DNA of 40,705 nt from an uncultured Verrucomicrobia subdivision 3 bacterium (GTDB taxonomy: Bacteria > Verrucomicrobiota > Verrucomicrobiia > Limisphaerales > UBA11358): assembly GCA_903865745.1 (NCBI GenBank), contig CAIPKV010000004.1, forward strand, positions 1 to 40,705, given 5' to 3'. The translations under genes and the position numbers were made by a program. Position 1 is the first letter of the stretch. The number at the start of each line of letters is the position of its first letter. Shown here piece by piece: positions 1,106 to 34,274 of the stretch. A model generated the notes under the pieces. It did not search any database, was not told where the DNA came from, and was given only the letters and a program-made list of their open reading frames with translations.

Positions 1106-1395
1106 GGTTGATCCTTGGTTTGATGTTGGCCGGCAAGGGGCCGTAGTTTAGGCTGCTGGGCCCTTTTTTAAATATATTTCAAACCAAATACAACTCAAAA
1201 GCACCTCAACTTAAAGCTCTACAAACCAAGGGTTGCAACCGCCCTTCCGCCCACCCATTCGCGTATTTCAGGTATCTCATGTTAAAGTCATTCTTTCCCA
1301 GCGGATGTAACAGAATGGGACAGTTGAACCACCGAAGCGCAACTCTATCCCAAAACCTGCCCATAAAGGGGACATTTCGTCATATCAATAACCAT
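1106..1395. other. Intergenic upstream region without a recognisable gene
   Basis: This is the promoter side of the leftward secreted-protein gene and the leader side of the first 21-bp repeat array. The minus-strand translation of the array itself runs into it, but no codon pattern typical of a gene is seen. The 10-mer AATGGGACAG at 1314-1323 is the reverse complement of CTGTCCCATT at 37629-37638 ahead of the third array. Confidence 0.5.
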
Positions 1396-1626
1396 GGACG
1401 GAGCAAACAGGGTCCTGTACGCGTCGTACAGGACCCTGTATGGACCAAACATAACCCTGTACACGCCGTACAGGACCCTGTACAGACCAAACTTAACCAT
1501 GTACGCGCCGTACAAGACCCTGTACGGACCAAACATAACCCTGTACGCGCCGTACAAGACCCTGTACGGACCAAACATAACCATGTACGCACCGTACAGA
1601 ACCCTGTTCGCGTCGGCCATGGTCGT
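1396..1626. repeat. 21-bp degenerate tandem repeat array 1 (alternating A/B units, 42-bp higher order)
   Basis: Eleven consecutive 21-bp units begin at 1396, 1417, 1438 and so on to 1606. Two unit types alternate. Type A begins GTACGCGCCGTAC (self-complementary GTAC...GTAC) and type B begins GTACGGACCAAACAT; both end in ACCCT or ACCAT. The best-conserved units are 1501-1584. Units at both ends are more diverged. Positions 1407-1439 form a near-perfect hairpin with 14-bp arms around the loop GCGTC. Because 21 is a multiple of 3, several frames on both strands stay open and encode heptad repeats such as LYAPYKT/LYGPNIT. I treat these as by-products, not genes. Confidence 0.9.
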
Positions 1627-1924
1627 GGCTGGAGACGATTTTACCCGGGTTGAGGCGTCGGTCTGCCCGCAGATTGATGCCTTCCAGCGCTCTTAAAACA
1701 GAAGCGGTAGCCAGCCAACCCCTGCCCTTGAATTTTATTTCGGCTTATCCATTGAAATGTCAGCCAAAATGGACATGGCAAGATTTGTCTAGGAATTGGC
1801 AACCGAGGGTGAGAGCTGGGCTGACCGTTAATATATCTTCCTCTTTGTAAAATATGAGTCACCATCAATCGTTGGCCCCACTTTATTGCAACCACTAAAA
1901 CAACCATTCTGACCCGGTAACCAC
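1627..1924. other. Intergenic region, nothing recognised
   Basis: This stretch of about 300 bases lies between the repeat array and the cytochrome gene. Short open frames on both strands have no family resemblance, no signal peptide and no ribosome-binding site. The promoter of the cytochrome-porin genes presumably lies near its right end, but I see no convincing -35/-10 pair. Confidence 0.4.
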
Positions 1925-2284
1925 ATGAAACCTCTTCAACCAATGAAAACTCTGGCTCAAACCGTCTTGGCCGCCGCGACGTTCGCCGGGCTGATGCTCA
2001 GCCTCGCGTCAACTTCGTGCTTCGCTGAACCACCCACCAACTCCGTACCGGCCACCGCTTCGGCCCCGGCCGCCGACCCGAAGGTCGTGACGCCGCGCAG
2101 CGCCCTCACCGGCGCGGAACTTTATTCGATGCATTGCAACCGGTGCCATCAGGAACGTTATCCCACCGAACGCACCGGGGCCTCCTGGAAGACCATCATG
2201 CTGCACATGCAGGTGCGCGCGAACATTCCGGTCAGCCAGTCCAAACTCATTCTCCAGTATCTCCAGGAAAACAGCGGTCGTTAA
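1925..2284 (+). CDS. Small periplasmic monoheme cytochrome c
   Basis: The 119-residue product has an N-terminal signal peptide (hydrophobic stretch about residues 11-33, ending near CFAEPP), a Pro/Ala-rich linker, and a single CxxCH heme-binding motif (CNRCH, C71, C74, H75). Met92 or Met95 is the likely distal heme ligand. The compact C-terminal part (residues 60-119) is the size of a minimal class I cytochrome c domain. A second in-frame ATG at 1946 is an alternative start that still leaves a signal peptide. It lies 27 bp before the porin gene, so the two are probably co-transcribed. It is likely an electron carrier in the cell envelope. The redox partner is unknown. Confidence 0.8.
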   Translation: MKPLQPMKTLAQTVLAAATFAGLMLSLASTSCFAEPPTNSVPATASAPAADPKVVTPRSALTGAELYSMHCNRCHQERYPTERTGASWKTIMLHMQVRANIPVSQSKLILQYLQENSGR

Positions 2285-17089: not shown

Positions 17090-19597
17090 TTAAATTTCCT
17101 CAACAAATTGATTACCACAAAAACGCCAGAGCTTTTTACCAGACGCGTCTAGGGCAAACAAGTTTACCCAGCCGTTCTCTATCAATTGGCGCACCCCGGA
17201 CTGCTTAGCGATAACCCGCTCTATGTCGCTGCATTCGGCTTCGATGAAGACATTCAGGCGCAATGGCTCATGCATCCAGCGGCTGCCATCATGAACGGAT
17301 TGGAGCGGCAAACCAGTCTGCAAATCGCCGCCATTGCCTTGCCAGACGCCGAAGGTGCCGACGACGTTATGTAGCACCTTGTTACCGCTACCAAACAGCC
17401 GGTTGTCAACGGTCGAACCGTAGTACTGTAAATTAATCCAACTGGCTACAACCATGGGCGCCACCATTATTAATTCCAAAGTGGATTTATCCTGGTCCTT
17501 ATTGTTGTCGTAGTTGTGCAAAAAAGTCCGGCCACCGAGATTCAAACCCCGCGTCCGTTCGCGCGGCGCGGCAATAAATGCAGCATTACCAGCCAAACCC
17601 CATTCCGGACGAACCTGCGACCAGTCACGGCTCCGTTTGAAAATATGTTCGTCCAATTCATCAGTCGGAACATCGACCAGATTAAGCGAAGTCGCCCGCT
17701 CCCTTCGCGCTACTTTCGATGCCGTAGCCAACCATTTTTGGATTTTTTCTAACTCCACAAATTGGTTAGGGGAAAGATTTTCCGTATCATAAATTAAAAC
17801 TTCATCCGTAGTCGTGTTATGCAAGCCAGCAATGAAAACGGTCTCGGCGGGGATAATAATTCCTTGCAACTTCAACCCCTCACGTACCGCTGGTTGGTTT
17901 AAGATATCCGCCGCCACACGGGCATTCACGTCCCCGGCATGGCCACCGCACGCGCCACAATCAAGTGCCGAGCCGTAGGGATTGTTTGCAGTCGAACTGC
18001 CGTGACCGCAAATTAAAACCACCTTGGCAAAATCCGCAATCAATCCCATATTCTTCAAGGCGAAGGTGGCCAGCGCGATTTGTTCAGCGGGCGTTATCCC
18101 AGTTTTAAAATAATGCCCGTGATCATCCGGGCAACAGGGTTCGCTTTCAATCCTTGGGCCATATTTCCCGTCTACTTCGGCAAATGACACCTCTGGGGCC
18201 GCCAATGCCAGGGTATCTTCGACCAACTTAACGCCATATCCCAACCCCGATGTCTCCACAAAAGAGAAACAAGAAATGGCAGAGGTTTTAAATGAATTCC
18301 AGGCATCATTAACGGTCTTTTGGAAATTCATTTTTCGCAATTCCGCTCGCTCCCTATCCACATTAGGGCGACGCAGAGCCTCCCGCACCTTGATTTTGGG
18401 TGTTAGCAATACCGGACACTGGGCGCTGCCGACCGACTGTCCTAATTTAAGGTGTTCAATTGTCATGCCAAAAAAACCAGCGAATCCAATTGTCTCGATT
18501 TCTTTCGACTGCTCCTCCAGCGAACGTCGGAATATTTCTGATCGCACATCAATACAGAAAATTGCTTGTAACGTTTTCTGGGTTGTGGCCGCCGGTTGTG
18601 GTATCTTTGATTTTAGCTTTGCGATTAATTCAGCTTGGTAGCGATGCTCCCAAGCCAATTGGGCGATATAACGGGCAAGTATATCAAGCGATACATTATC
18701 ACGCTCGAGATTACGGAAATCTTTTTTCCAATCGGCGACTAATTCGGCCTCACCACCAAATTGACCAAGTAAAGCGAGGTCATAAACGAGCCTGATGGCA
18801 AGCAGTTGCGCCAGCGTATCATCTTGCCCGCCAGCCATGGTTTTTTCGCGCACCAAATATTGGATGTAGCTGCTCCAACCGGGGATGCTCATTAGTTGTC
18901 GGTGCAGAAAGTTCGGCCGCAAGTATTCCGGCACCGCAAGTTGTTCCAACGCTTTCTCAATGATTTCAAAATAGTCGTGGGGCAGCGTAGCGATGAATCT
19001 TCGGAAGTTTTTTAAACCCGCCATTTCCGAATTGGCGTCAAGCTGCGCCACCTGCTTCCAGGCAGCAAATAATCCTAAATGACGCCACGGCATCCGCCAC
19101 GAGGACTGGCCCTGGTCAAAATAGGTCGAACACCACTTGGAAATCTCCTCAACCACAAAGGCGGCCCATTCGGTCTCGTTGCGCGTGTCTAGAAAGTCAG
19201 CGAAAGTCAAAACGCGCATTTGTATATTTTGCCCTGAAGAATTAGATAGCGCACTTTTCAATGAATCAAGACTGACGAAATCAATCTGGTTTGCCCAAAC
19301 CGCCGGCAGATTGTTTGAGGCGAGCCGCATCGCCGCTTGAAAATCTGGCTCCCGAATCCGGCCACTGGTAATTTGGTCGTAATAAAATGCCGCCGGCATG
19401 AGCATTTCGCCGTGGCCAACTTGTGGAATCAATTTGGCCGCCTCAATGAAATGACGGTCGCTCAAGCCCAGGAACGGATTGACGGCGACGAAGTTCTTCA
19501 ATGACCACAGCGGCGGAATGCGTTTGCATACAGATTGAACCGTATTTTGGAGCTCGTTTTTCATTTCGGAAGTTTCGGTTTCAAGGGCTGGGTTCAT
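17090..19597 (-). CDS. dabA: Inorganic carbon accumulation protein DabA (DUF2309)
   Basis: The 835-residue product is the zinc-containing, carbonic-anhydrase-like subunit of the DAB inorganic-carbon uptake system, which converts CO2 to bicarbonate one way inside the cell at the membrane. The four expected zinc and active-site residues are visible: C348 and D350 (FCIDVRSE), H532 (CGHGSS) and C547 (LDCGACGGHAGDVNAR). The N-terminal PLWSLKNFVAVNPFLGL is also typical. Start overlaps the dabB stop by 4 bp. In autotrophs DAB feeds Rubisco; in heterotrophs (for example MpsAB of Staphylococcus) it supplies bicarbonate for growth. Here the downstream ppc, purK and pyc name the likely consumers. Confidence 0.95.
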   Translation of the reverse strand: MNPALETETSEMKNELQNTVQSVCKRIPPLWSLKNFVAVNPFLGLSDRHFIEAAKLIPQVGHGEMLMPAAFYYDQITSGRIREPDFQAAMRLASNNLPAVWANQIDFVSLDSLKSALSNSSGQNIQMRVLTFADFLDTRNETEWAAFVVEEISKWCSTYFDQGQSSWRMPWRHLGLFAAWKQVAQLDANSEMAGLKNFRRFIATLPHDYFEIIEKALEQLAVPEYLRPNFLHRQLMSIPGWSSYIQYLVREKTMAGGQDDTLAQLLAIRLVYDLALLGQFGGEAELVADWKKDFRNLERDNVSLDILARYIAQLAWEHRYQAELIAKLKSKIPQPAATTQKTLQAIFCIDVRSEIFRRSLEEQSKEIETIGFAGFFGMTIEHLKLGQSVGSAQCPVLLTPKIKVREALRRPNVDRERAELRKMNFQKTVNDAWNSFKTSAISCFSFVETSGLGYGVKLVEDTLALAAPEVSFAEVDGKYGPRIESEPCCPDDHGHYFKTGITPAEQIALATFALKNMGLIADFAKVVLICGHGSSTANNPYGSALDCGACGGHAGDVNARVAADILNQPAVREGLKLQGIIIPAETVFIAGLHNTTTDEVLIYDTENLSPNQFVELEKIQKWLATASKVARRERATSLNLVDVPTDELDEHIFKRSRDWSQVRPEWGLAGNAAFIAAPRERTRGLNLGGRTFLHNYDNNKDQDKSTLELIMVAPMVVASWINLQYYGSTVDNRLFGSGNKVLHNVVGTFGVWQGNGGDLQTGLPLQSVHDGSRWMHEPLRLNVFIEAECSDIERVIAKQSGVRQLIENGWVNLFALDASGKKLWRFCGNQFVEEI

Positions 19598-21210
19598 TTT
19601 TTATTACGAATGACTTTTATTGGCCAGACGGCGGTCACCAGCCGGTTGGCCAGCGTATTGAAGTAAAAACCGTTTCGTGCATGTACGTAAATCACCTGAA
19701 AGAGCGGCCGGTTTGTCCACACCGGCAACTCTGTCTGCACCACTAATACCAGCAAAAACAGCGCAAGCAGCGTCACCAGCAATACCATTCCCGTCCAAGT
19801 ATTGAGTTGCGAATTAACCCATTCGCTTTGACCAATAAGCTGGCCGAAGATTTTGTGGAGCGCGAAATACACAGCCACAATGCCGCCGCCAAATACGACG
19901 CCGAAGACGGCCATCTTGAAATCCAATAACTGGCTCCACAAATTCCACAGTGCATATGCCAGCGCCATCGCGAACGTGCAACCCAGCACGAAGAGCGCTG
20001 GCTCGTGCCGGTAATCCACTCCAAAAAACCATGCCGAACCGAGCGCCATTAAGCCAGCCGTACCAAATGCTGCGACGAACGTAAGCGGATGGGCGATTGG
20101 TTTCCCGGTCGGAGTCCACGCCGATTTTGCCATGCTGACAATGCTGCCCGACGATAGGAACGCGTGTGCCTTGTACAACGAATGCGCCACGAGGTGCAGG
20201 ACCGCGAGGCCAAACGCACCCAGACCGCATTCGAGCATCATAAAACCCATTTGGGCGACCGTGGAAAAGGCCAGTGACCGCTTGACGCTCGCGTGCGTCA
20301 GCATCACCAGCGAAGCGAACAGCGCGGTAAAGGCGCCAAACAAAGCCAGCGTAGACATTGCTGCGGGCGAAAGCGTGACCAGCGGGTTTAGCCGGATGAT
20401 GAGATAGCCACCGGCATTGATAATGCCTGCGTGCATGAGGGCCGAGACTGGCGTGGGCGTCTCCATCGTGTCTGGCAGCCAACTATGAAAAGGGAACTGT
20501 GCCGACTTAAGCATCGCAACTGCCACGAGCAGGAAACAAATCAGATTTACTTCTCCGCCATCCATAATAAAACCAGTTTCGTGTAAATGTCTGGTTGCGT
20601 TGAACAGCACGGAAAAATCCCAAGTGTGAAATACCTTGTACACCAAAACGATGGCCATCAAAAGACCCGCATCGCCAAGACGGCTCAGAATAAACTTCTT
20701 TCGCGCGGCGAGTAAGGCTCCGGGGCGTTCAGGATAAAATACCAGCAACTGATGCAGGGATAAACTGGTAGCACACCACGCCAGCGCGAATTGGACGAGG
20801 TTACCTGAAATCACAATGCTCAGCACCGAACCACCCGTAAGACATAGCCATTTGGTGAAGCGCCCTTGCGCCGGATCGCCTGCGAGATAGTTGACCGAGT
20901 AACGCGCGATGACCGCCAGTAAAAAAGCAATCAAGACCAGCAAGCAGGCGGACAAATTATCGAAGTATACGCCCAGTTTGAAGGCGCTGACGACTGTTAG
21001 TTGAACGTCTACAAGCCCATTGAAACCCAGGCTGATGGCGGCCAGACAAGCCAACCCAAGGGTGGCGAGTGATATGGTGGCACCGATGCGGGCGGCGCGA
21101 ATTCCATTCTGATTAAGCATCGCTTCCGGGAGTAGTCCAAAACCGATTAAGGCCAGCGGGCCGGCGGCGACCAGTGCGGCGGTCAAGATTTGATGATTCT
21201 CGTTAGTCAT
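19594..21210 (-). CDS. dabB: DabB, proton/cation-translocating membrane subunit (NuoL-like)
   Basis: The 538-residue polytopic membrane protein (about 13-14 helices) belongs to the NuoL/Mrp antiporter family. It shows the conserved KSAQFPFHSWLPDTMETPTPVSALMHAG region, split here: FPFHSWLPDTME then TPTPVSALMHAG. With DabA it powers CO2 hydration using the cation gradient. The start at 21210 is preferred over an ATG at 21234 because AAGGA (minus strand of 21216-21220) lies 5 bases before it, one of few good Shine-Dalgarno sites in the window. It is the first gene of the operon. Its promoter region also holds the start of the divergent lysR. Confidence 0.94.
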   Translation of the reverse strand: MTNENHQILTAALVAAGPLALIGFGLLPEAMLNQNGIRAARIGATISLATLGLACLAAISLGFNGLVDVQLTVVSAFKLGVYFDNLSACLLVLIAFLLAVIARYSVNYLAGDPAQGRFTKWLCLTGGSVLSIVISGNLVQFALAWCATSLSLHQLLVFYPERPGALLAARKKFILSRLGDAGLLMAIVLVYKVFHTWDFSVLFNATRHLHETGFIMDGGEVNLICFLLVAVAMLKSAQFPFHSWLPDTMETPTPVSALMHAGIINAGGYLIIRLNPLVTLSPAAMSTLALFGAFTALFASLVMLTHASVKRSLAFSTVAQMGFMMLECGLGAFGLAVLHLVAHSLYKAHAFLSSGSIVSMAKSAWTPTGKPIAHPLTFVAAFGTAGLMALGSAWFFGVDYRHEPALFVLGCTFAMALAYALWNLWSQLLDFKMAVFGVVFGGGIVAVYFALHKIFGQLIGQSEWVNSQLNTWTGMVLLVTLLALFLLVLVVQTELPVWTNRPLFQVIYVHARNGFYFNTLANRLVTAVWPIKVIRNKK

Positions 21211-21260
21211 GGCGTTCCTTAACAACGCGTTCATACTAGCTGATTTTTTATTTCGTATAA

Positions 21261-25967: not shown

Positions 25968-26759
25968 ATGACCACTTTCGTGCCGGTGAACAATCTGGAA
26001 ACCAAACTCCGCGCCATCATCACCGATCCGACCACGCTGTCGTGGAGTTTCTACACACCCCTCGCCGCCTCCCCGCTCTGGCTCATCGTCAAAAATCATC
26101 CGGAACTCGATGGCAGCAATCTGGTCGCGCCGCTGGGCAAGAATCCCGAAGTGTGCACGTTCCATTTCCCCCAGGGTGCGTTCATCGGACTTTACACCTC
26201 GCCGGGCCGCGCCCAGGCGGCGATTGCGCATTGGAAAATGTCCACGCACGATTGGACCGTCGTGTCGGCGCCCGGCTATCAACTGCTAAAATTTCTGACC
26301 CATTCCGAGGCGAAACTCTACGTTAACATCGGGGTAAAGGAATGCCAATATCAGCTCGACCCGGACATGGTGGAAATCCTTCTCAGTCGTCCTGAACCCA
26401 TCTACGAAACCCCGCAAACCGCCCGCAAAGCCGACTTCGCGCCCGCGCCTGAATATGAGAAACATTTAAAACCGCTGCACGATTTTCTAAGCCGCCAGCC
26501 CAAGCTGCGCGCCGCCTGGGTTTACCGACAATCATCCCCCGCGCCTGCGCCGGGAACTAATCACGTGTATGAAATCGGGCTGGTGATGGATGACCCGGAA
26601 GATAAAAGTCTGCTGGCCGAAGTCGGGGTGATTGCCAAGGCGCTGACCCCGGTAGAGTTGGAATGTGTGATTGCCACGCTAATGGCCGACGACCAATCCC
26701 TGCGGAACTTGTCCAAGCAAAAACCCCCGTTCTACGCCCGCCCTGATTTCCTTAGGTAA
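25968..26759 (+). CDS. SseB-like protein (enhanced serine sensitivity family)
   Basis: The 263-residue soluble protein has the two-part SseB layout. The N-terminal SseB domain (about 15-135) contains SPLWLIVKN, FIGLYTSPGRAQAAI and a GYQLLKFL segment. The C-terminal SseB_C domain (about 160-260) contains LRAAWVYRQ, VYEIGLVMDD, AEVGVIAKAL and the end KQKPPFYAR, which matches the PFY end of the E. coli protein. Biochemical role in the family is unclear (serine sensitivity phenotype in E. coli). A 22-bp stretch from its 3' end is duplicated at 36664-36690. Confidence 0.75.
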   Translation: MTTFVPVNNLETKLRAIITDPTTLSWSFYTPLAASPLWLIVKNHPELDGSNLVAPLGKNPEVCTFHFPQGAFIGLYTSPGRAQAAIAHWKMSTHDWTVVSAPGYQLLKFLTHSEAKLYVNIGVKECQYQLDPDMVEILLSRPEPIYETPQTARKADFAPAPEYEKHLKPLHDFLSRQPKLRAAWVYRQSSPAPAPGTNHVYEIGLVMDDPEDKSLLAEVGVIAKALTPVELECVIATLMADDQSLRNLSKQKPPFYARPDFLR

Positions 26760-26809
26760 TTATGGTTTAGCGGTTTTAATCTATAAAAAACTGAGCTGGT
26801 ATCTGGTAA

Positions 26810-27040
26810 TTATCCCCGTTTTTGCATCCTTTTGGCGCGGAGAATCTCGTCCGTCAATTCCTTTGGCGCGGCCATGAATAAGCTACTGTTGAGTTTGTAA
26901 AACAGCCCTTGCAAATCCTTTAATTGGATGTGCAGCGACACACCGCTCAACGTCTGCATATCTGGCCTGGTACAATCCACCAAGTGGTTCAAATCATCTT
27001 CAATGGTCTGCAAATAATTTGCTATTTTCTCGTTGAACAT
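26810..27040 (-). CDS. Small helical protein, unknown function
   Basis: The 76-residue product is not recognised. It is mostly helical (MFNEKIANYLQTIEDDLNHLVDC, then LKDLQGLFYKLNSSLF) with a basic C-terminus (RAKRMQKRG). No signal peptide or membrane segment is present. It sits downstream of the two small membrane-protein genes on the same strand (58-bp gap), so it may belong to the same leftward transcript starting near 27650. Confidence 0.5.
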   Translation of the reverse strand: MFNEKIANYLQTIEDDLNHLVDCTRPDMQTLSGVSLHIQLKDLQGLFYKLNSSLFMAAPKELTDEILRAKRMQKRG

Positions 27041-27098
27041 ATTTTAATTTCTTAAAACCCCGGAAAACTCAACAGGCTCAGTTGGTTTTATATTACGA

Positions 27099-27284
27099 TT
27101 AATTTCTTTTAAAAGTGGTGTCGGTTACACTTTCCTGACTGCTTGGATTCGTAGTATTGAGACCGGCCTTGCGGATTTGGTCCGCTTCATCCTTGGCCCA
27201 GTCGTGCGCCTGCTGGATCGCTATAAAAACAATCCCCGTGATGGCGCAGCCGAACAAAAAAATGGGGAAAATGTAGATGCCCAT
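27099..27284 (-). CDS. Small single-span membrane protein
   Basis: The 61-residue product has one transmembrane helix (about residues 3-23, IYIFPIFLFGCAITGIVFIAI) followed by a charged soluble tail (HDWAKDEADQIRKAG). It begins 1 bp after the stop of the next gene upstream (27286), so both are co-transcribed. The family is not recognised. Short hydrophobic proteins of this shape are common accessory subunits, but no partner is visible here. Confidence 0.55.
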   Translation of the reverse strand: MGIYIFPIFLFGCAITGIVFIAIQQAHDWAKDEADQIRKAGLNTTNPSSQESVTDTTFKRN

Positions 27285-27285
27285 A

Positions 27286-27480
27286 TTACTTTTTCCGGTT
27301 GTAGGCTGGACTCTCCGATACCACTACCAGGCGCACGCCCACCCAGAGCGCGAGAATACTGGGCACCCAAAGTCCCACGTAAACACCGTAGTCGTGATTC
27401 ACCAGAAACCACAAGCCGACGCTCACGACGAAACTCGCGAAGGCGGCGAACAGAAAGGAATAGTCGTATTTCTTGAACAT
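27286..27480 (-). CDS. Small two-span membrane protein
   Basis: The 64-residue product has two hydrophobic segments (about 8-27 SFLFAAFASFVVSVGLWFLV, and 34-53 YVGLWVPSILALWVGVRLVV) joined by NHDYG, with a basic C-terminus (YNRKK). The family is unknown. It lies upstream of the 27099 gene with overlapping translation signals. A promoter with CarH-like repeats lies about 180 bp upstream on the minus strand, suggesting light/B12-controlled expression (inference). Confidence 0.55.
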   Translation of the reverse strand: MFKKYDYSFLFAAFASFVVSVGLWFLVNHDYGVYVGLWVPSILALWVGVRLVVVSESPAYNRKK

Positions 27481-27605
27481 TTTTTGTTTCTTTTTGGTTT
27501 TTGAGTTTTGAACCCAACGCTCACCGCAAAATGCGTCGGCGGATAATAGGTTAATTTTAATACCCGGCCGGCGCTTTCATCCGGTGATGCTTTTTCCAGT
27601 TTCAT
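27423..27605 (-). CDS. Doubtful small ORF at the head of the leftward unit
   Basis: This 60-residue reading (MKLEKASPDESAGRVLKL...) starts about 45 bp downstream of the predicted leftward promoter. Its second half overlaps the better-supported membrane-protein gene at 27286-27480 and turns Ser/Pro/Arg-rich. Only the position favours it. It may be a leader peptide or non-coding. Confidence 0.2.
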   Translation of the reverse strand: MKLEKASPDESAGRVLKLTYYPPTHFAVSVGFKTQKPKRNKKCSRNTTIPFCSPPSRVSS

Positions 27606-27651
27606 GCTTACTTAATTTTTTGACCGCAATTCCCGCCAAACCGTGGCGAAG

Positions 27652-27687
27652 ATGTGCAACTATTGTGTAGTTTTTGTGTAATGTCAA
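27652..27687 (-). promoter_or_regulatory. Leftward promoter overlapped by 11-bp CarH-like direct repeats
   Basis: On the minus strand, TTGACA (27687-27682) is followed after 17 bp by AATAGT (27664-27659), a good sigma70-type promoter pointing to the small membrane-protein genes. On the plus strand, ATGTGCAA (27652), TTGTGTAG (27663) and TTGTGTAA (27674) recur at exactly 11-bp steps across its spacer and -10. In reverse complement they fit the CarH operator form (nTnTACAn repeats 11 bp apart) with one or two mismatches each. Binding would block RNA polymerase. Confidence 0.55.
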
Positions 27688-27800
27688 ATTCATTCTCAAA
27701 ACTATTATTTCACCCGGCAAATTACCGTCAGATTCGCTACTTTTATTAACAATAAAGCACATTAATCCAACATATTCGAATCATCCGGGCATTTTTAAAC

Positions 27801-27836
27801 TTGCCAGCGAGGTTATTTTGTATAATTATTGTGTAA
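27801..27836 (+). promoter_or_regulatory. Promoter of the B12-regulator gene with 11-bp direct repeats
   Basis: TTGTATAA (27818-27825) and TTGTGTAA (27829-27836) are spaced 11 bp apart, just before the ATG at 27841. The first contains TATAAT (27821-27826), a perfect -10. TTGCCA at 27801-27806 may serve as -35, though it is only 14 bp from that -10 and 17 bp from AATTAT. The reverse complement of the first repeat (TTATACAA) matches the CarH half-site exactly. This suggests autorepression. Confidence 0.5.
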
Positions 27837-27840
27837 TTAG

Positions 27841-28806
27841 ATGTCAGCCGCCAGTCATCCAATTAAAATTGTCGCCCGCCTCACCGGGTTGAGCCCGTTC
27901 GTCGTCCGGATCTGGGAGCAGCGCTATGGCGCCGTCAAACCCGAGCGTACCGGTGGTAACCGCCGGCTTTATTCAGATGAACAGGTTGAGCGGCTTAACT
28001 TGCTGCGTGAAGTTACTCAGGCCGGTCACAACATCGGCCTGGTCGCCCGCTGGCCGACCGAAAAGCTGCGCCAGCAGGCGGCTGATTCCACTGGCTTGAC
28101 TTCGCCCACGAAGCCGGCTGCGGCGGCCGCGCCGACTTCAATTCATTCAATCCATCAAGAATGCGTGGCGGCGATGAGAGCGCTCGACGCCAGGGCTTTT
28201 GAGGGGGCGCTAAAACGTGGCGTTGCCTCCTTTGGCACCATGGGACTGCTGCAGCGCGTCATTGCGCCGCTGACGCAAATGATCGGTGAGCTTTGGATAG
28301 CTGGCAGCATTAGCGTGGGCCACGAACATTTGGCGACTTCCGTCCTGCGGACGTTTTTGCTCAACGCGGCCCGGCCTTTCGGCGAAACAAAACATTCCCC
28401 CCGGCTGGTAGTCGCCACGCCGGCGGGCCAGATTCATGAACTCGGCGCGCTGCTGGTCGCCGCGATGGCCACGCAACTGGATTGGGAGGTTATTTATCTG
28501 GGCGCAAGTTTGCCCGCCCCAGAAATTGCCGGCGCCGCACGCCAGAGTCATGCGCGGGCCGTCGCCTTGAGCCTCGTGTATCCCGAAGACGATTCGCGGC
28601 TGGACAACGAGCTGGCCCTGCTCCGGGAATTGCTGCCGGCGGAAGTCTCCATTTTAGCGGGCGGTCGGGCAATGCCCGCTTATCACGATGCGATTAAAAA
28701 AATCAACGCCATTCAAATTAGCGACCTGACCGGTCTCGCCACCCAACTGGAAGGATTAAGAAAACCCGCCAAGAAGATTTCCCGCCCCCAAAAAGCGGTC
28801 AAATAA
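27841..28806 (+). CDS. MerR-family B12-dependent photoreceptor regulator (CarH/LitR-like)
   Basis: The 321-residue product has an N-terminal MerR helix-turn-helix (about 7-75: IKIVARLTGLSPFVVRIWEQRYG, with RTGGNRRLYSDEQVERL split). A linker of Ala/Thr/Pro follows, then a four-helix cap (about 103-180) and a cobalamin-binding Rossmann fold (about 186-300). The cap carries W152-x9-E162-H163, the signature of CarH/LitR photoreceptors. H199 (in QIHELG) is the expected lower ligand of cobalt. Such proteins bind adenosylcobalamin as a dark repressor and release DNA in light. Its gene is followed 8 bp later by an NDH-2 gene, so both are one transcript, and the upstream repeats suit its family. Confidence 0.88.
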   Translation: MSAASHPIKIVARLTGLSPFVVRIWEQRYGAVKPERTGGNRRLYSDEQVERLNLLREVTQAGHNIGLVARWPTEKLRQQAADSTGLTSPTKPAAAAAPTSIHSIHQECVAAMRALDARAFEGALKRGVASFGTMGLLQRVIAPLTQMIGELWIAGSISVGHEHLATSVLRTFLLNAARPFGETKHSPRLVVATPAGQIHELGALLVAAMATQLDWEVIYLGASLPAPEIAGAARQSHARAVALSLVYPEDDSRLDNELALLRELLPAEVSILAGGRAMPAYHDAIKKINAIQISDLTGLATQLEGLRKPAKKISRPQKAVK

Positions 28807-28814
28807 CCTTTTAA

Positions 28815-30089
28815 ATGGAAACCACCACCCCTATTCATATCGTCGTCCTCGGTGCGGGCTTTGGCGGCCTTAACTTCTGCAAACAATTTCAGGTGCCCGG
28901 GGCGCGCATCACGCTGGTTGACCGCACCAATCACCATTTGTTTCAGCCGCTACTGTACCAGGTGGCGACTTGCGGCTTATCTGCGCCCGACATCGCGCAA
29001 CCCGTTCGCTCCATATTATCCGATCGGCCGGATGTCACCGTTTTGCTGGATAACGTAACCGGTTTCGATATCAGCCAGCGGCGCGTATTGCTCGAAAAAA
29101 ATTCGTTAAGCTACGACTATCTCATCCTCGCGCTGGGCGGCAAGACGGGTTACTTCGGCCATCCCGAATGGGAACGTTTTGCGCCGGGCCTTAAAACACT
29201 TGAAGACGCGCTCCGCATCCGCAGCCATGTCCTGCTCTCGTTCGAGCGGGCCGAGAACGAGGCGGATACCGCCGAACATGACAAGCTGATGACCATCGTG
29301 GTAGTGGGCGGCGGCCCGACCGGCGTGGAACTCGCCGGCTCTTTTGCCGAACTGACCCGCACCGTCTTGAAACGTGATTTTCGGCGCATTGATCCAACGC
29401 AGGCGAAGATTATTCTTATTGAGGCCTCCCCCAACCTGCTTTCGAATTTTCCCCGGGATTTATCCGCCAGCGCCCGCCGTCAGCTGGAAGCGCTGGGGGT
29501 GCAAGTCCGCACCGAAACCATGGTCAAGGCGATCCGCGAAGGCGAAGTCGAACTTACCAGCGGCGAAACCATTCAAGCTGCCAACATCGTCTGGGCGGCC
29601 GGCGTTTCCGCGACTCCGCTTACGAAAAAACTTGGCGTGGGGCTCGACCCGGCCGGGCGTGTGAAAGTGAACCCCGATTTGAGCCTGCCCGGCCATTCGG
29701 AAATATTTGCCATCGGCGACATGACCTTCGTACCGCAAGCCGACGGCAAACCCGTGCCGGGCGTCTCACCTGCAGCGATCCAGATGGCATCGCACGTGGC
29801 CAAAATTATCGAGCAGGAAGTCATGTTTGCCGCGAACCGCGACACCCGTCCCGCCTTCAAATATTGGGATAAAGGCACCATGGCGACCATTGGACGTTCG
29901 GCCGCCGTGGCGTGGATAGGCAAACTAAAGTTTTCCGGCCCGCTCGCGTGGCTGGCGTGGCTGTTCGTGCATTTGATTTTCCTGATTGGATTCCGGAACC
30001 GCACCTCCGTCTTTTTTCAGTGGGCGTATTCCTATTTCTCCTACAAACGGAGTGCACGACTGATTACGAATCTGCCCGAAAAGAATTGA
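28815..30089 (+). CDS. ndh: Type II NADH dehydrogenase (NDH-2)
   Basis: The 424-residue flavoprotein oxidises NADH and passes electrons to quinone without pumping protons. It has the FAD-binding GAGFGG (13-18), the NAD-binding GGGPTGVELAG (165-175), the AIGDMTFVP motif of the FAD-binding end, and a C-terminal membrane-associating hydrophobic stretch (LAWLAWLFVHLIFLIGF about 375-392, then the typical YSYFSYKRSARLI). Length is usual for the family. Cotranscription with the B12 regulator suggests that NADH oxidation is adjusted to light, for instance against singlet-oxygen or over-reduction; this is inference. Confidence 0.93.
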   Translation: METTTPIHIVVLGAGFGGLNFCKQFQVPGARITLVDRTNHHLFQPLLYQVATCGLSAPDIAQPVRSILSDRPDVTVLLDNVTGFDISQRRVLLEKNSLSYDYLILALGGKTGYFGHPEWERFAPGLKTLEDALRIRSHVLLSFERAENEADTAEHDKLMTIVVVGGGPTGVELAGSFAELTRTVLKRDFRRIDPTQAKIILIEASPNLLSNFPRDLSASARRQLEALGVQVRTETMVKAIREGEVELTSGETIQAANIVWAAGVSATPLTKKLGVGLDPAGRVKVNPDLSLPGHSEIFAIGDMTFVPQADGKPVPGVSPAAIQMASHVAKIIEQEVMFAANRDTRPAFKYWDKGTMATIGRSAAVAWIGKLKFSGPLAWLAWLFVHLIFLIGFRNRTSVFFQWAYSYFSYKRSARLITNLPEKN

Positions 30090-30149
30090 GCTGAGGGTTA
30101 CCCGCAGATTTGGGAGATAATCAAGCTGGCGCCCGAAATTTCACATCAC

Positions 30150-31751
30150 TTACTCCGTGGTCTTAGAGGTCAGTTGTAGCGCCTTTATTCGTGAAATCAA
30201 GGTCGTGGGGTTCATCTTTAGAATTGAAGCCGCGCCGGATTCCCCAAATATTTTTCCCTCACTGCGCTTCAAAGCATTTTGAATGATCTCCTTCTCCATC
30301 CGTTTCCACTGATCACGCGTAACAATTGGCTGCGTCCCGCCCCCCGTGGCGGAATCCGGAGAGCGGACTGGGTCCGGCGTTGCCGCCAGCAACGATTCAA
30401 GATCCAATTTGGATCGCTGGGCCAGAATGATTGCCCGCTCGATGGCATTGTGCAATTCACGAACATTTCCCTGCCAATCAAGTCCCGCGAGGAAATCCGC
30501 CTGCGCTTTGGTCAGGCGCGGTGGTGGCAGATTCATTTTTTTAGCCGTCGACCGGAGGAAATGTGCCGCTAGTAGCGGGATATCCTCGCGCCGTTCCCGT
30601 AGCGGAGGAATTTCCAGGGGGAAAACGCTCAGCCGGAAAAACAGATCCTGACGGAAGCGCCCCGTGGCAGCCTCTTTCTTAAGATCCCGATTCGTGGCCG
30701 CCACAATCCGCACGTCGATTTTCCGCGTCCGTGGATCCCCCACCCGCTCAACCTCCTGCTCCTGCAACACCCGTAGTAGCTTCGCCTGAACCGTCAGCGG
30801 TATTTCTCCGATTTCATCCAGGAATAACGTGCCGCCATCGGCAAGTTCGAAACGCCCGGGCTTGTCATGCGTGGCTCCAGTGAAAGCTCCGCGCTTGTGG
30901 CCAAAAAATTCGCTCTCGAATAGGTTTTCCGGAATTGCCCCGCAATTAACTTTTATCAGAGCGCGCCCTTTCCGAGGGCTGTTTTCATGAATGGCCCGGG
31001 CCACCAATTCCTTGCCGGTACCGCTTTCACCACAAATTAAAACGGAAGCATCTGTGGGCGCAACCAGTTGGATTTGATGCAGCACCTTTTTGATTCCGGG
31101 GCTGGTGCCGATGATGTTATGGTGCCCTAGGGCCTCATTTACTTCCGCGCGAAGGTAGTTGTTTTCCTCCTCCAACCGTTCTTTTAATAGCGCAATTTCC
31201 TCAAAAGCTCGCGCATTCACGATGCTGACCGCCGCCTGGTCGGCACACACCCGCAGCCAGACAAAATCCTCGTCGCTGAGCAGCTTCTTATCCCACACCT
31301 CCAGCACGCCCATCGTTTCCCCGCGAAAATGCAACGGCTGCGCCGCGAAATTCTTGATTCTTTCACTCCTTACCCAATCTGGATAAACAATCCATTCTTC
31401 ATGCGGATCAACCGTGGGCTTTCTCACCGGCAGGGCGGAACTGAAAACCGTGCCGATTTGCGCCATGTTAATCGGATACCGGTCAAAAGCGGGCGACTGG
31501 TCGTTCACCTTATGTTTGGCAGTCGGCGAGTTGCTGGCGCTGGCCATCAAGTGCAAACATCTTTCCTGATTCTGACATCGGTCCCGGAGCTGACAGCCAT
31601 CGCACCGGTCGCCCGGTCCAACCAGCCAGATACTCGAGAGCGATACGGACTGCGAACTGACAATGCCATTGACGATTACCTGCAGCAGCGAGGACACGGA
31701 ACGCTCTTGCGCCATTGCCAATATCAACTTGGGAAAACTCGCGGAGTCCAT
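30150..31751 (-). CDS. Sigma54-dependent transcriptional activator with GAF domain and Cys cluster
   Basis: The 533-residue product has an N-terminal GAF sensor (about 15-185) with an inserted C50-x2-C53-x5-C59-x5-C65 cluster, which might bind an Fe-S cluster or metal. A coiled linker (about 185-210) follows. The AAA+ domain (about 213-445) has Walker A GESGTGKE (241-248), the sigma54-contacting loop GAFTGA (288-293) and Walker [11 protein letters not shown] (306-315). The C-terminal Fis-type helix-turn-helix (about 485-530, [18 protein letters not shown] then [11 protein letters not shown]) completes it. Architecture is like NorR/FhlA. It is divergent from the AhpD-P460 genes, which have a sigma54 promoter, so those are its probable targets. 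Confidence 0.93.
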
Positions 31752-32604: not shown

Positions 32605-33009
32605 ATGTCACACACACACGAACTCGTTAACACCTCCGGCGCCAGCGGCATTGACCTTAGCGGCTATGACACCGTGGCGTTTTTCACCCAGCACAAGCCC
32701 GTTCACGGCAATCCCGGCATTTCCGTGCAACACCATGGCGCCACGTACTTCTTTGCCAACGAAGAGCATCGCAAACTGTTTGTTGGGGCCCCGGATAAAT
32801 ACCTGCCCCAGTGCGGCGGTTTTTGCGCTTTTGGCGCTTCGGTCAATGCCCTGTTCCCGATTGATATCAGCACCTGGCAGATCGTGGACGGCAAACTGTA
32901 CTTCACCTTGAATCCGGAAATTCATAAGGCGTTGAATGCCGATTTAACCGGCAACCTCACCAAAGCGGCTCACAATATGCCCGGCTTGGTCGCAAAACAC
33001 GCCAAGTAA
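32605..33009 (+). CDS. YHS-domain protein
   Basis: The 134-residue soluble product has no signal peptide. The core HGATYFFANEEHRKLFVGAPDKYLPQCGGFCAFG is the YHS pattern (given here in parts: ATYFFANEEHRKLF and PDKYLPQCGGFCA). The two Cys of QCGGFC may bind metal. YHS modules occur in metal transport and oxidoreductase proteins. It lies 81 bp after the AhpD-like gene and is followed by a hairpin (33017-33048) before the first P460 gene. The precise function is unknown. Confidence 0.8.
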   Translation: MSHTHELVNTSGASGIDLSGYDTVAFFTQHKPVHGNPGISVQHHGATYFFANEEHRKLFVGAPDKYLPQCGGFCAFGASVNALFPIDISTWQIVDGKLYFTLNPEIHKALNADLTGNLTKAAHNMPGLVAKHAK

Positions 33010-33016
33010 TCGGCGT

Positions 33017-33048
33017 AACTGGCCGGAGGCAGCTCCCTCAGGCCAGTT
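33017..33048 (+). promoter_or_regulatory. Intercistronic hairpin between the YHS and P460 genes
   Basis: AACTGGCC (33017-33024) pairs with GGCCAGTT (33041-33048), with GAGG/CCTC pairs inside. No T run follows, so it more likely stabilises or separates transcript segments than terminates. A GC-rich hairpin (GGCGGGC at 33672-33678, GCCCGCC at 33682-33688) lies in the same place after the next gene. Confidence 0.5.
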
Positions 33049-33080
33049 CCCTTCCAAAACAACTAACTAAAAACATAAAA

Positions 33081-33665
33081 ATGAAAATGAACTTTAAATT
33101 CTCAGCCCTAGTATTAGTCACCGCGGCCCTGTCCATCGTCACGCCCGCCCTCGCCCAAGACGGCATGGCCAAACAGGGCACCGCGGCGCAATGGAATGAC
33201 AAAGGTCAACTCTTGCAGCCCGTTGGCTATCGAGAATGGATTTTCGTGGGCGCGCCCGTCACGCCCAATGACCTGAACGATGGCAAAGCGGCTTTCCCGG
33301 AGTTCCACGACGTTTACATCGAACCCACCAGCTGGGCGCAATACAAAAAGACCGGCGAATTCCCGGATGGCACCATCATCGTCAAGGAATTGGTGAGCGT
33401 CGGCGCCAAATCAGCCCCCAGCGGCAATGGCTATTTCGAAGGTGAATTTATTGGCCTGGAAGCCGCGGTTAAAAGTGCTGATAAACATCCCAAAGAACCC
33501 GGCAACTGGGGTTACTACAGTTTCACCCAGCCCGGAGCCGCGCCCTTGAAGGTGACCGCGCTTAAGGCAACTGCCAGTTGCAATGCCTGCCATCAGGCGA
33601 GTGCCAAGCAGGATTATGTATTCACCCAATACTACCCCGTCCTCCGCGCAGCGGGTAAACACTAA
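33081..33665 (+). CDS. Cytochrome P460-family protein 1
   Basis: The 194-residue product has a signal peptide (ending TPALAQ, about residue 26), a beta-sheet-rich core with VGYREWIFVGAP, and EFHDVYIEP. It also has YKKTGEFPDGTIIVKEL (87-104). The C-terminal heme site is C167-x2-C170-H171, followed by KQDYVFTQYYPVLR, the P460 end. The family covers hydroxylamine-oxidising P460 and the NO-binding cytochrome c'-beta; both act in the periplasm. Whether the Lys-heme crosslink that separates them exists cannot be decided from sequence alone. It is third in the sigma54-controlled unit. Confidence 0.88.
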   Translation: MKMNFKFSALVLVTAALSIVTPALAQDGMAKQGTAAQWNDKGQLLQPVGYREWIFVGAPVTPNDLNDGKAAFPEFHDVYIEPTSWAQYKKTGEFPDGTIIVKELVSVGAKSAPSGNGYFEGEFIGLEAAVKSADKHPKEPGNWGYYSFTQPGAAPLKVTALKATASCNACHQASAKQDYVFTQYYPVLRAAGKH

Positions 33666-33710
33666 ATCACCGGCGGGCGGCGCCCGCCGCCGCTCGCCCC
33701 CTTTATCATC

Positions 33711-34274
33711 ATGAATAAAATAAATCATTCCCTCCGCGTAATCGTTTTCACCCTGCTCACGCTGGCGACGGTTGGCGCGGTCTTACCCGCGCGCGCGCAA
33801 GACCAAAAACCGTTGCCCTATGTCAGTGCAAAGGGCGAAATATCCATGCCGACCGGTTTTCGTGAAAAAATGATCTATATTGGTTCCTGGTCCTTGCAAG
33901 GTCAGATGCATGAGGTTTACACCCAGCCGGAATCGCTGGCGGCTTATCGTAAAACCGGCGCCTTTCCCGATGGCACCGTGCTCATCAAAGAAGTCCGGGC
34001 TGGGGATTCAGGTTTGAAAACCACCGGCCAAGTGCGTTGGGCCAAAGACGAAGATTTGCAATGCTTCGTGATGGTCAAAGACAATTACAACCGTTTTCCC
34101 GGCAACCCGCTGTGGCAAGACGGCTGGGGTTGGGCGCTATTCAAAGCCGATGCGCCCATGAAACAGGTGGCGACCAGTTACACAGCCGATTGTCAGGCCT
34201 GCCACGTTCCAGCCGCCGCTACCGATCACGTCTTTACTGAAGGTTATCCCATCCTACGCATACACAAACCATAG
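33711..34274 (+). CDS. Cytochrome P460-family protein 2
   Basis: The 187-residue paralogue of the preceding gene has a signal peptide (ending ARAQ, residue 30), PTGFREKMIYIGSW, HEVYTQPESLAAYRKTG and AFPDGTVLIKEV. The heme motif is C161-x2-C164-H165 and the end is TDHVFTEGYPILR. The two share the layout but have diverged strongly, so this is an old duplication and they may have split roles (for example one catalytic, one binding or electron transfer). The gene is followed by a strong hairpin with a T run (34307-34341) that ends the unit. Confidence 0.88.
   Translation: MNKINHSLRVIVFTLLTLATVGAVLPARAQDQKPLPYVSAKGEISMPTGFREKMIYIGSWSLQGQMHEVYTQPESLAAYRKTGAFPDGTVLIKEVRAGDSGLKTTGQVRWAKDEDLQCFVMVKDNYNRFPGNPLWQDGWGWALFKADAPMKQVATSYTADCQACHVPAAATDHVFTEGYPILRIHKP

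Follow-up and report, generated by a model that had tools for sequence, protein, structure and literature searches.

The 321-residue regulator encoded near position 28,000 of the window (the whole 40,705-nt stretch of DNA analyzed here) is very probably a CarH-type photoreceptor and repressor that, bound to adenosylcobalamin (AdoCbl) in the dark, would occupy two operators, with both of the associated promoters released by light. In the dark, the AdoCbl-bound protein would oligomerize and bind 11-bp repeats. Three of these boxes extend from the leftward -35 element to the start and two lie over the regulator's own -10 and start, so that both promoters would be blocked. Light would break the Co-C bond and the oligomer would fall apart, after which the leftward small-ORF unit, as well as the regulator and an NDH-2-like gene, would be transcribed. 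CarH-type autoregulation combined with control of a divergent promoter, as predicted here from the sequence, is supported by the protein type, the format of the boxes, their overlap with promoters and their recurrence at related loci; we infer in addition that the regulator binds AdoCbl, responds to light and represses. The features on which this reading draws are as follows.

26810..27040, minus strand: small protein of 76 aa, with a homolog directly leftward of the regulator at locus L046
27099..27284, minus strand: small protein of 61 aa, starting 1 nt after the stop of the 64-aa ORF, with a similar N-terminus in L045
27286..27480, minus strand: small membrane-type protein of 64 aa ("membrane-type" from reading the sequence); in the leftward unit, the first gene that is clearly coding
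27423..27605, minus strand: leader open frame (profile match 27486-27605) directly downstream of the leftward promoter, a peptide or nucleic-acid element
27652..27659, minus strand: predicted operator box L1 (plus strand ATGTGCAA), with TnnACA on the minus strand, at the leftward -10 and start; fits TGTnnA
27663..27670, minus strand: predicted operator box L2 (plus strand TTGTGTAG), 11 bp from L1
27674..27681, minus strand: predicted operator box L3 (plus strand TTGTGTAA), abutting the leftward -35
27659..27687, minus strand: leftward promoter, TTGACA (27687..27682), N17, AATAGT (27664..27659), by consensus match
27801..27829, plus strand: promoter-like site of the regulator, TTGCCA-N17-AATTAT, by consensus match only (9/12)
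27818..27825, minus strand: predicted operator box R1 (plus strand TTGTATAA), overlapping TATAAT
27829..27836, minus strand: predicted operator box R2 (plus strand TTGTGTAA), ending 4 bp before the regulator's ATG
27841..28806, plus strand: CarH-type regulator of 321 aa, with a MerR winged helix, a four-helix B12-binding_2 domain and a Rossmann B12-binding domain
28815..30089, plus strand: NDH-2-like pyridine nucleotide-disulfide oxidoreductase (Pfam Pyr_redox_2, 1.6e-49; NDH2_C, 1.4e-7)

Three Pfam domains are found in the regulator: MerR_1 (5e-14), B12-binding_2 (1.6e-7) and B12-binding (2.6e-11). Its best solved relatives are the Thermus thermophilus CarH entries 3whp and 5c8d (phmmer, 1.7e-30 and 2.2e-30), and an AlphaFold model built from a 15-sequence alignment (mean pLDDT 82.3, pTM 0.61) returns full-length Thermus CarH (5c8d, 5c8f, 5c8e) as its top Foldseek matches in the PDB; among the Foldseek matches listed, the isolated B12 domain of the model superposes at 2.5-2.9 Å. 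The CarH equivalog NF052513 of NCBIfam scores 125 bits, under its cut-off of 400. Because of this score, and because one residue departs from the B12 motif, we label the protein "CarH-type, a variant": as far as sequence can tell, it is of the CarH kind, but its contact residues diverge and its neighbors are unusual. The recognition-helix pattern RxWERRY reads RIWEQRY here, with Q replacing the first R of ERRY; across 30 orthologs, R, W, E, R and Y are present in 30/30, and the variable place is occupied by K (15), Q (9), R (5) or H (1). The closest taxon-named carH ortholog, L032, lies on a Verrucomicrobia subdivision 3 MAG contig (75% identity), and the other orthologs at or above 55% identity are L034 (71%), L033 (a Limisphaerales MAG, 65%) and L035 (an Akkermansiaceae MAG, 55%). 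The host genome, 3.63 Mb in 87 contigs, includes a cobalamin adenosyltransferase gene.

The published CarH repeat is an 11-bp unit, nnnnTnnACAn, whose core TnnACA, also given in PMC8156234, is the reverse complement of TGTnnA (PMC9304148). Tandem 11-bp TnnACA repeats lie over promoter elements on both sides of the regulator, as five predicted boxes in two arrays. The initial annotation had described these boxes as TTGTRTAR, which holds exactly at 27663, 27674, 27818 and 27829 and with two mismatches at 27652 (ATGTGCAA). Its 11-bp spacing, with three boxes (27652, 27663, 27674) in one array and two (27818, 27829) in the other, is borne out, all five fitting TGTnnA. It had also compared them with the CarH form nTnTACAn, which is strictly fitted only by the box at 27818; all five do fit nnnnTnnACAn. 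The number of single boxes is within chance, since TTGTRTAR matches four times in the whole window and 20 of 100 shuffles reach four (mean 2.11); their arrangement is beyond it. Exactly three 11-bp TGTnnA pairs occur on both strands of the window, starting at 27653, 27664 and 27819. Genome-wide (3.63 Mb), TTGTRTA-N4-TTGTRTA has two exact matches, both at this locus, and one more with one mismatch (reversed-pattern control, 0). The looser TTGTNTA-N4-TTGTNTA likewise has two exact matches, both here, and two more with one mismatch; it is not over-represented as such, since the control gives five at equal tolerance. The surroundings of one of these two single-mismatch sites, on contig C32, gave nothing identifiable.

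Both arrays coincide with promoter-like sequences, as had been proposed. The leftward TTGACA-N17-AATAGT under the three boxes is the best of six promoter-like sites in 26700-30200 (score 10/12), a region whose shuffles average 2.5 such sites. On the other side, an alternative -10 of the regulator's promoter, TATAAT at 27821-27826, lies across the box at 27818; the two boxes lie over the -10 and start of this promoter.

We compared 31 carH loci: the window's own and 29 more out of the 45 carH matches with E < 1e-40, together with L035. Up to 230 bp upstream of the regulator and on its strand, these contain 56 TGTnnA pairs at a spacing of 11 (shuffles: mean 0.32, maximum 3), with 0 to 9 at other spacings from 6 to 25 and one at 11 on the opposite strand; the 56 pairs are not independent trials, because the loci share ancestry. 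The leftward TTGACA itself reads TnnACA, and part of the 56 pairs uses it. With TGTNTA, which excludes the -35 hexamer, 24 pairs remain at a spacing of 11 (0.03 in shuffles). At least one 11-bp pair is found in 28/31 loci, located upstream of -95 in 25, within 45 bp of the start in 16 and at both places in 14; upstream of carH in L050, L030 and L031 (3/31 loci) there is none. At the six closest loci, the start-proximal pair is kept in all six and the leftward pair in five. The agreement of protein type and site format that had first been taken to point to light/B12 control thus stands, in the form of CarH-type domains, boxes over promoters and a pair at 28 of 31 carH loci.

A different account of the boxes is that they have nothing to do with the regulator, being sites of another DNA-binding protein or simply AT-rich promoter sequence. 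It accords with the number of single boxes, which are no commoner than chance, and with the double box, which across the relatives' genomes is not enriched over its control: exact TTGTNTA-N4-TTGTNTA occurs at 20 sites in 146 genomes (own included) and its reversed control at 31, so that any excess is one of placement and not of number. The placement and the 11-bp spacing signal at carH loci, however, argue against this account. Ten of the 20 exact sites fall in the 300 bp before the start of a carH match (n = 45), all reading in the carH direction, where about 0.0004 would be expected by chance for a total assumed as 700 Mb and not summed. Two of the ten exact sites away from carH were read (G009:C18 and G079:C474), and neither has a clear light gene nearby. 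We therefore regard boxes unrelated to the regulator as very improbable, and operators of a CarH-type repressor remain the preferred reading.

The boxes recur in distinct registers relative to the leftward promoter, for which 24/31 loci have a TTGACA at positions from -95 to -230 relative to the regulator. In the first layout, seen in the window and L042, boxes stand at -7, -18 and -29 from TTGACA, covering the promoter from its -35 past the -10 up to the start. L045 shares these three positions, L043 and L053 keep -7 and -18, and the spacing of L3 to TTGACA in the window is identical in L042, L043, L045 and L053. In the second layout, found in 12 of the 24 TTGACA loci, a box lies on the opposite flank at a distance of 11 bp, and TTGACA thereby becomes part of the repeat; embedding of a -35 within a CarH repeat has been published (PMC9304148), and these 12 loci resemble it. 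Boxes at -19 and -30 occur in six loci.

We then asked what the regulator's residues suggest about a light response. Both of the photoreceptor features initially noted are present: the W-x9-EH motif, as WIAGSISVGHEH, and the expected His ligand, in QIHELG. The published light signature GxxW, EH, GxxH, GxxxP (PMC11796333) is complete, at G149/W152, E162-H163, G196/H199 and G221/P225. The B12 motif HxxG-x41-SxT/V-x22-27-GG is also fitted (H199, G202, 41 residues, S244-x-V246, 27 residues, GG). For residue counts, L057 was excluded from the 31 loci because its frame is broken; among the remaining 30 orthologs, the W, E, lower His, S and GG are each conserved in 30 and the H of EH in 29. The acidic D/E two residues before the B12-motif His is absent, being Q197 in the regulator and Q in 30/30 orthologs. 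Carrying over positions through a phmmer alignment of the regulator to Thermus CarH, we found equivalents of Thermus His132, Arg176 and Asp201 (any of the three) in 0/30 orthologs. The regulator has I153, I198 and S223 there, and the His132-equivalent position, Ile in the regulator, is Arg in 17/30. In Thermus CarH, His132 is the upper ligand after light, and Arg176 and Asp201 form a dimer contact (PMC10442372). Given the absence of these three equivalents and the Gln in place of the acidic residue, the switch must differ in detail, and the particulars of the Thermus mechanism cannot simply be carried over.

Since neither the ligand switch that light drives in Thermus CarH nor its dimer contact is present here, the regulator might instead be a B12-binding autorepressor that acts at the same operators and senses the availability of AdoCbl rather than light. 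Besides the lack of all three equivalents across the 30 orthologs, the Thermus H132A variant speaks for such a sensor, being largely tetrameric after light, though an earlier report of the opposite, disassembly, is noted in the same paper (PMC10442372). Set against it are the four elements of the light signature, all kept in the regulator; the B12 domain of CtMerR, which has Arg at the place of His132 and reportedly goes from tetramer to monomer in light (an anaerobic crystal showed no monomerization; PMC11796333); and the CrtI-family and UvdE genes that adjoin the regulator in relatives and fit photoprotection. On this evidence we consider sensing of AdoCbl availability improbable, and a light response of the regulator, by a route other than that of Thermus, is likely as judged from its residues.

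On the rightward side, the NDH-2-like gene starts 8 bp past the regulator stop and would be co-transcribed with it. A homolog also follows the regulator in L042, in L045 and, shortened, in L043; beyond it in L045 lie an SDR gene and a UvdE endonuclease gene, and UvdE has no match in the window's own genome. Elsewhere in the window, an ORF resembling a proton-pumping NADH dehydrogenase subunit lies beside a divergent LysR-type ORF (19594-21234, minus strand), and a YHS-like ORF and two cytochrome P460-like ORFs stand in a row (32605-34274, plus strand), all named from their translations.

The leftward side varies among the loci. Assigning first leftward genes by single-linkage clustering, with one representative per named family scanned for domains, we found across the 31 loci a fasciclin cluster (9), a sigma-70 factor (8), the CrtI family (3), a DCC-type oxidoreductase (2) and, at one locus each, an SDR, a YgaP-like membrane protein, a homolog of the 76-aa ORF and the window's leader ORF. 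Five loci have no assigned first gene, among them L026 (CrtI-like by eye) and L031 (sigma-like by eye). L024, L025, L027-L030, L056 and L058 are the loci where the sigma-70 gene comes first on the divergent side of carH, and its representative, from L027, has regions 1.2 to 4. No carotenoid gene adjoins the regulator in the window, and no 11-bp TGTnnA pair was found within 1.2-1.5 kb upstream of the two CrtI-family genes of its own genome, or in the stretch examined upstream of its two squalene/phytoene-synthase-like genes and its one adenosyltransferase gene. Of the window's small leftward proteins, the 64-aa protein has no Pfam match, and neither the 61-aa nor the 76-aa protein has an NCBIfam match.

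In L042, L045, L047, L049 and L051, a promoter and leader of the same kind precede fasciclin, which has no match in the window's own genome; most simply, it would have been lost from the window lineage, although it is present at only two of the five closest loci. The leftward operator could then be a relic of the lost gene, now driving nothing of note. Such a history would suit both the fasciclin loci and the window's leader, which continues straight into a small ORF. It is harder to reconcile with a leftward array that has three boxes and a perfect TTGACA, with the coding constraint on the 64-aa ORF (28 of 41 differences from L045 fall at third codon positions), whose L045 counterpart lies behind fasciclin, and with the homolog of the 76-aa ORF that is the first leftward gene in L046. 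A relic operator thus seems unlikely to us, if far from negligible, and we keep to a leftward small-ORF unit under the regulator's control.

The leader of about 120 nt is common to the window, L042, L045, L047, L049, L051 and, most weakly, L025, where it precedes the sigma factor. A profile (A1) of which the window's leader is a member matches that leader at 4.5e-16 (next best match in the own genome, E 0.145) and, at E ≤ 0.01, 12 of 146 genomes, 7 of the 12 being profile members. The matches in L075 and L078 are divergent to carH-like sequence, and a weak match in L077 (E 0.006) has no carH or fasciclin context. In L076, the leader precedes a fasciclin gene (1392-2011, minus strand) that has a TGTCAA/TGTCTA pair spaced by 11 bp. 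The 5 kb examined there contain no carH match, which makes this gene a candidate CarH target in trans. The leader in L074 stands beside a carH-like start recognized by eye, with only a short C-terminal carH match, and an apparently shortened fasciclin. Within L074, the fasciclin frame and the carH-like frame both look internally shortened (2018-2560). A full carH also occurs in the genome of L074 (G077), on a separate contig (L050), and no 11-bp pair lies upstream of it.

The leader may act as a peptide or as a nucleic acid. Read as a peptide, it shows a nearly even spread of differences by codon position (376/367/391) over the 21 of 55 pairs with less than 50% difference; the trio of window, L042 and L045 leans to third positions (15/37, 18/36 and 21/44), and the frame of the leader relative to the next gene varies between in-frame and overlapping. 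Read as a folded RNA, it has an unfavorable covariation term (+0.28 and +0.31 kcal/mol), with predicted pairs changed on both sides in 5/20 and 4/8 cases. A known riboswitch is unsupported, since Rfam gave no family at E values up to 1 for 27000-28000 or for L047, L049 and L076.

Taken together, these loci might represent a distinct Verrucomicrobiota clade of CarH-like regulators that lack the known light-state ligand, the salt bridge of the dimer and the B12 motif's acidic residue, with an exchangeable first gene and a leader that serves as a control element. This joint reading is tentative and, in its entirety, doubtful. If true, it would describe a photostress regulon with a fixed operator and promoter and a first gene that is swapped (fasciclin, sigma-70, CrtI family, small membrane proteins), and in which the leader of about 120 nt stays with the promoter in part of the loci and acts as a control element of its own.

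A light-responsive regulator with these operators would extend the B12 photoreceptor system, protein and operator alike, to a phylum for which our literature search found no paper joining CarH with "Verrucomicrobi"; matches to CarH with fasciclin were unrelated, as judged by title. It would also offer a natural test of CarH-type switching in a protein that has neither the bis-His ligand nor the Arg-Asp contact, and the neighborhoods suggest targets beyond carotenoids, namely a sigma factor, a UV endonuclease and envelope proteins.

One of the closest known systems is Thermus thermophilus CarH (5C8D/5C8E), which shares the layout of MerR, four-helix and Rossmann domains, the Wx9EH motif and the lower-axial His, as well as 11-bp direct repeats over promoter elements with three boxes at one operator (PMC10442372, PMC9304148); identity to its chains 5c8d, 5c8e and 5c8f is 26-31% among the Foldseek matches listed. 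Unlike it, the regulator lacks equivalents of His132, Arg176 and Asp201, has Q for E in the B12 motif, and is flanked by two operators at divergent promoters in a window without an adjoining carotenoid gene. Like the regulator here, CarH of the Sorangiineae has two operators that are unequal and are expected to act on divergent promoters, sometimes with only one or two full repeats in an operator; in contrast, the targets described for it are carotenoid genes and our regulator comes from another phylum (PMC9304148). Class II LitR proteins are likewise MerR-type light regulators of stress genes, but their B12 domain is reduced to its four-helix half, whereas the regulator has both halves, as in class I (PMC9758184). 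Finally, CtMerR (8JBS/8JBT; PMC11796333) resembles the regulator as a MerR-type AdoCbl protein without a His132 equivalent and with GxxW, EH, GxxH and GxxxP, the two aligning over residues 98-260 only (phmmer E 5.1e-11).
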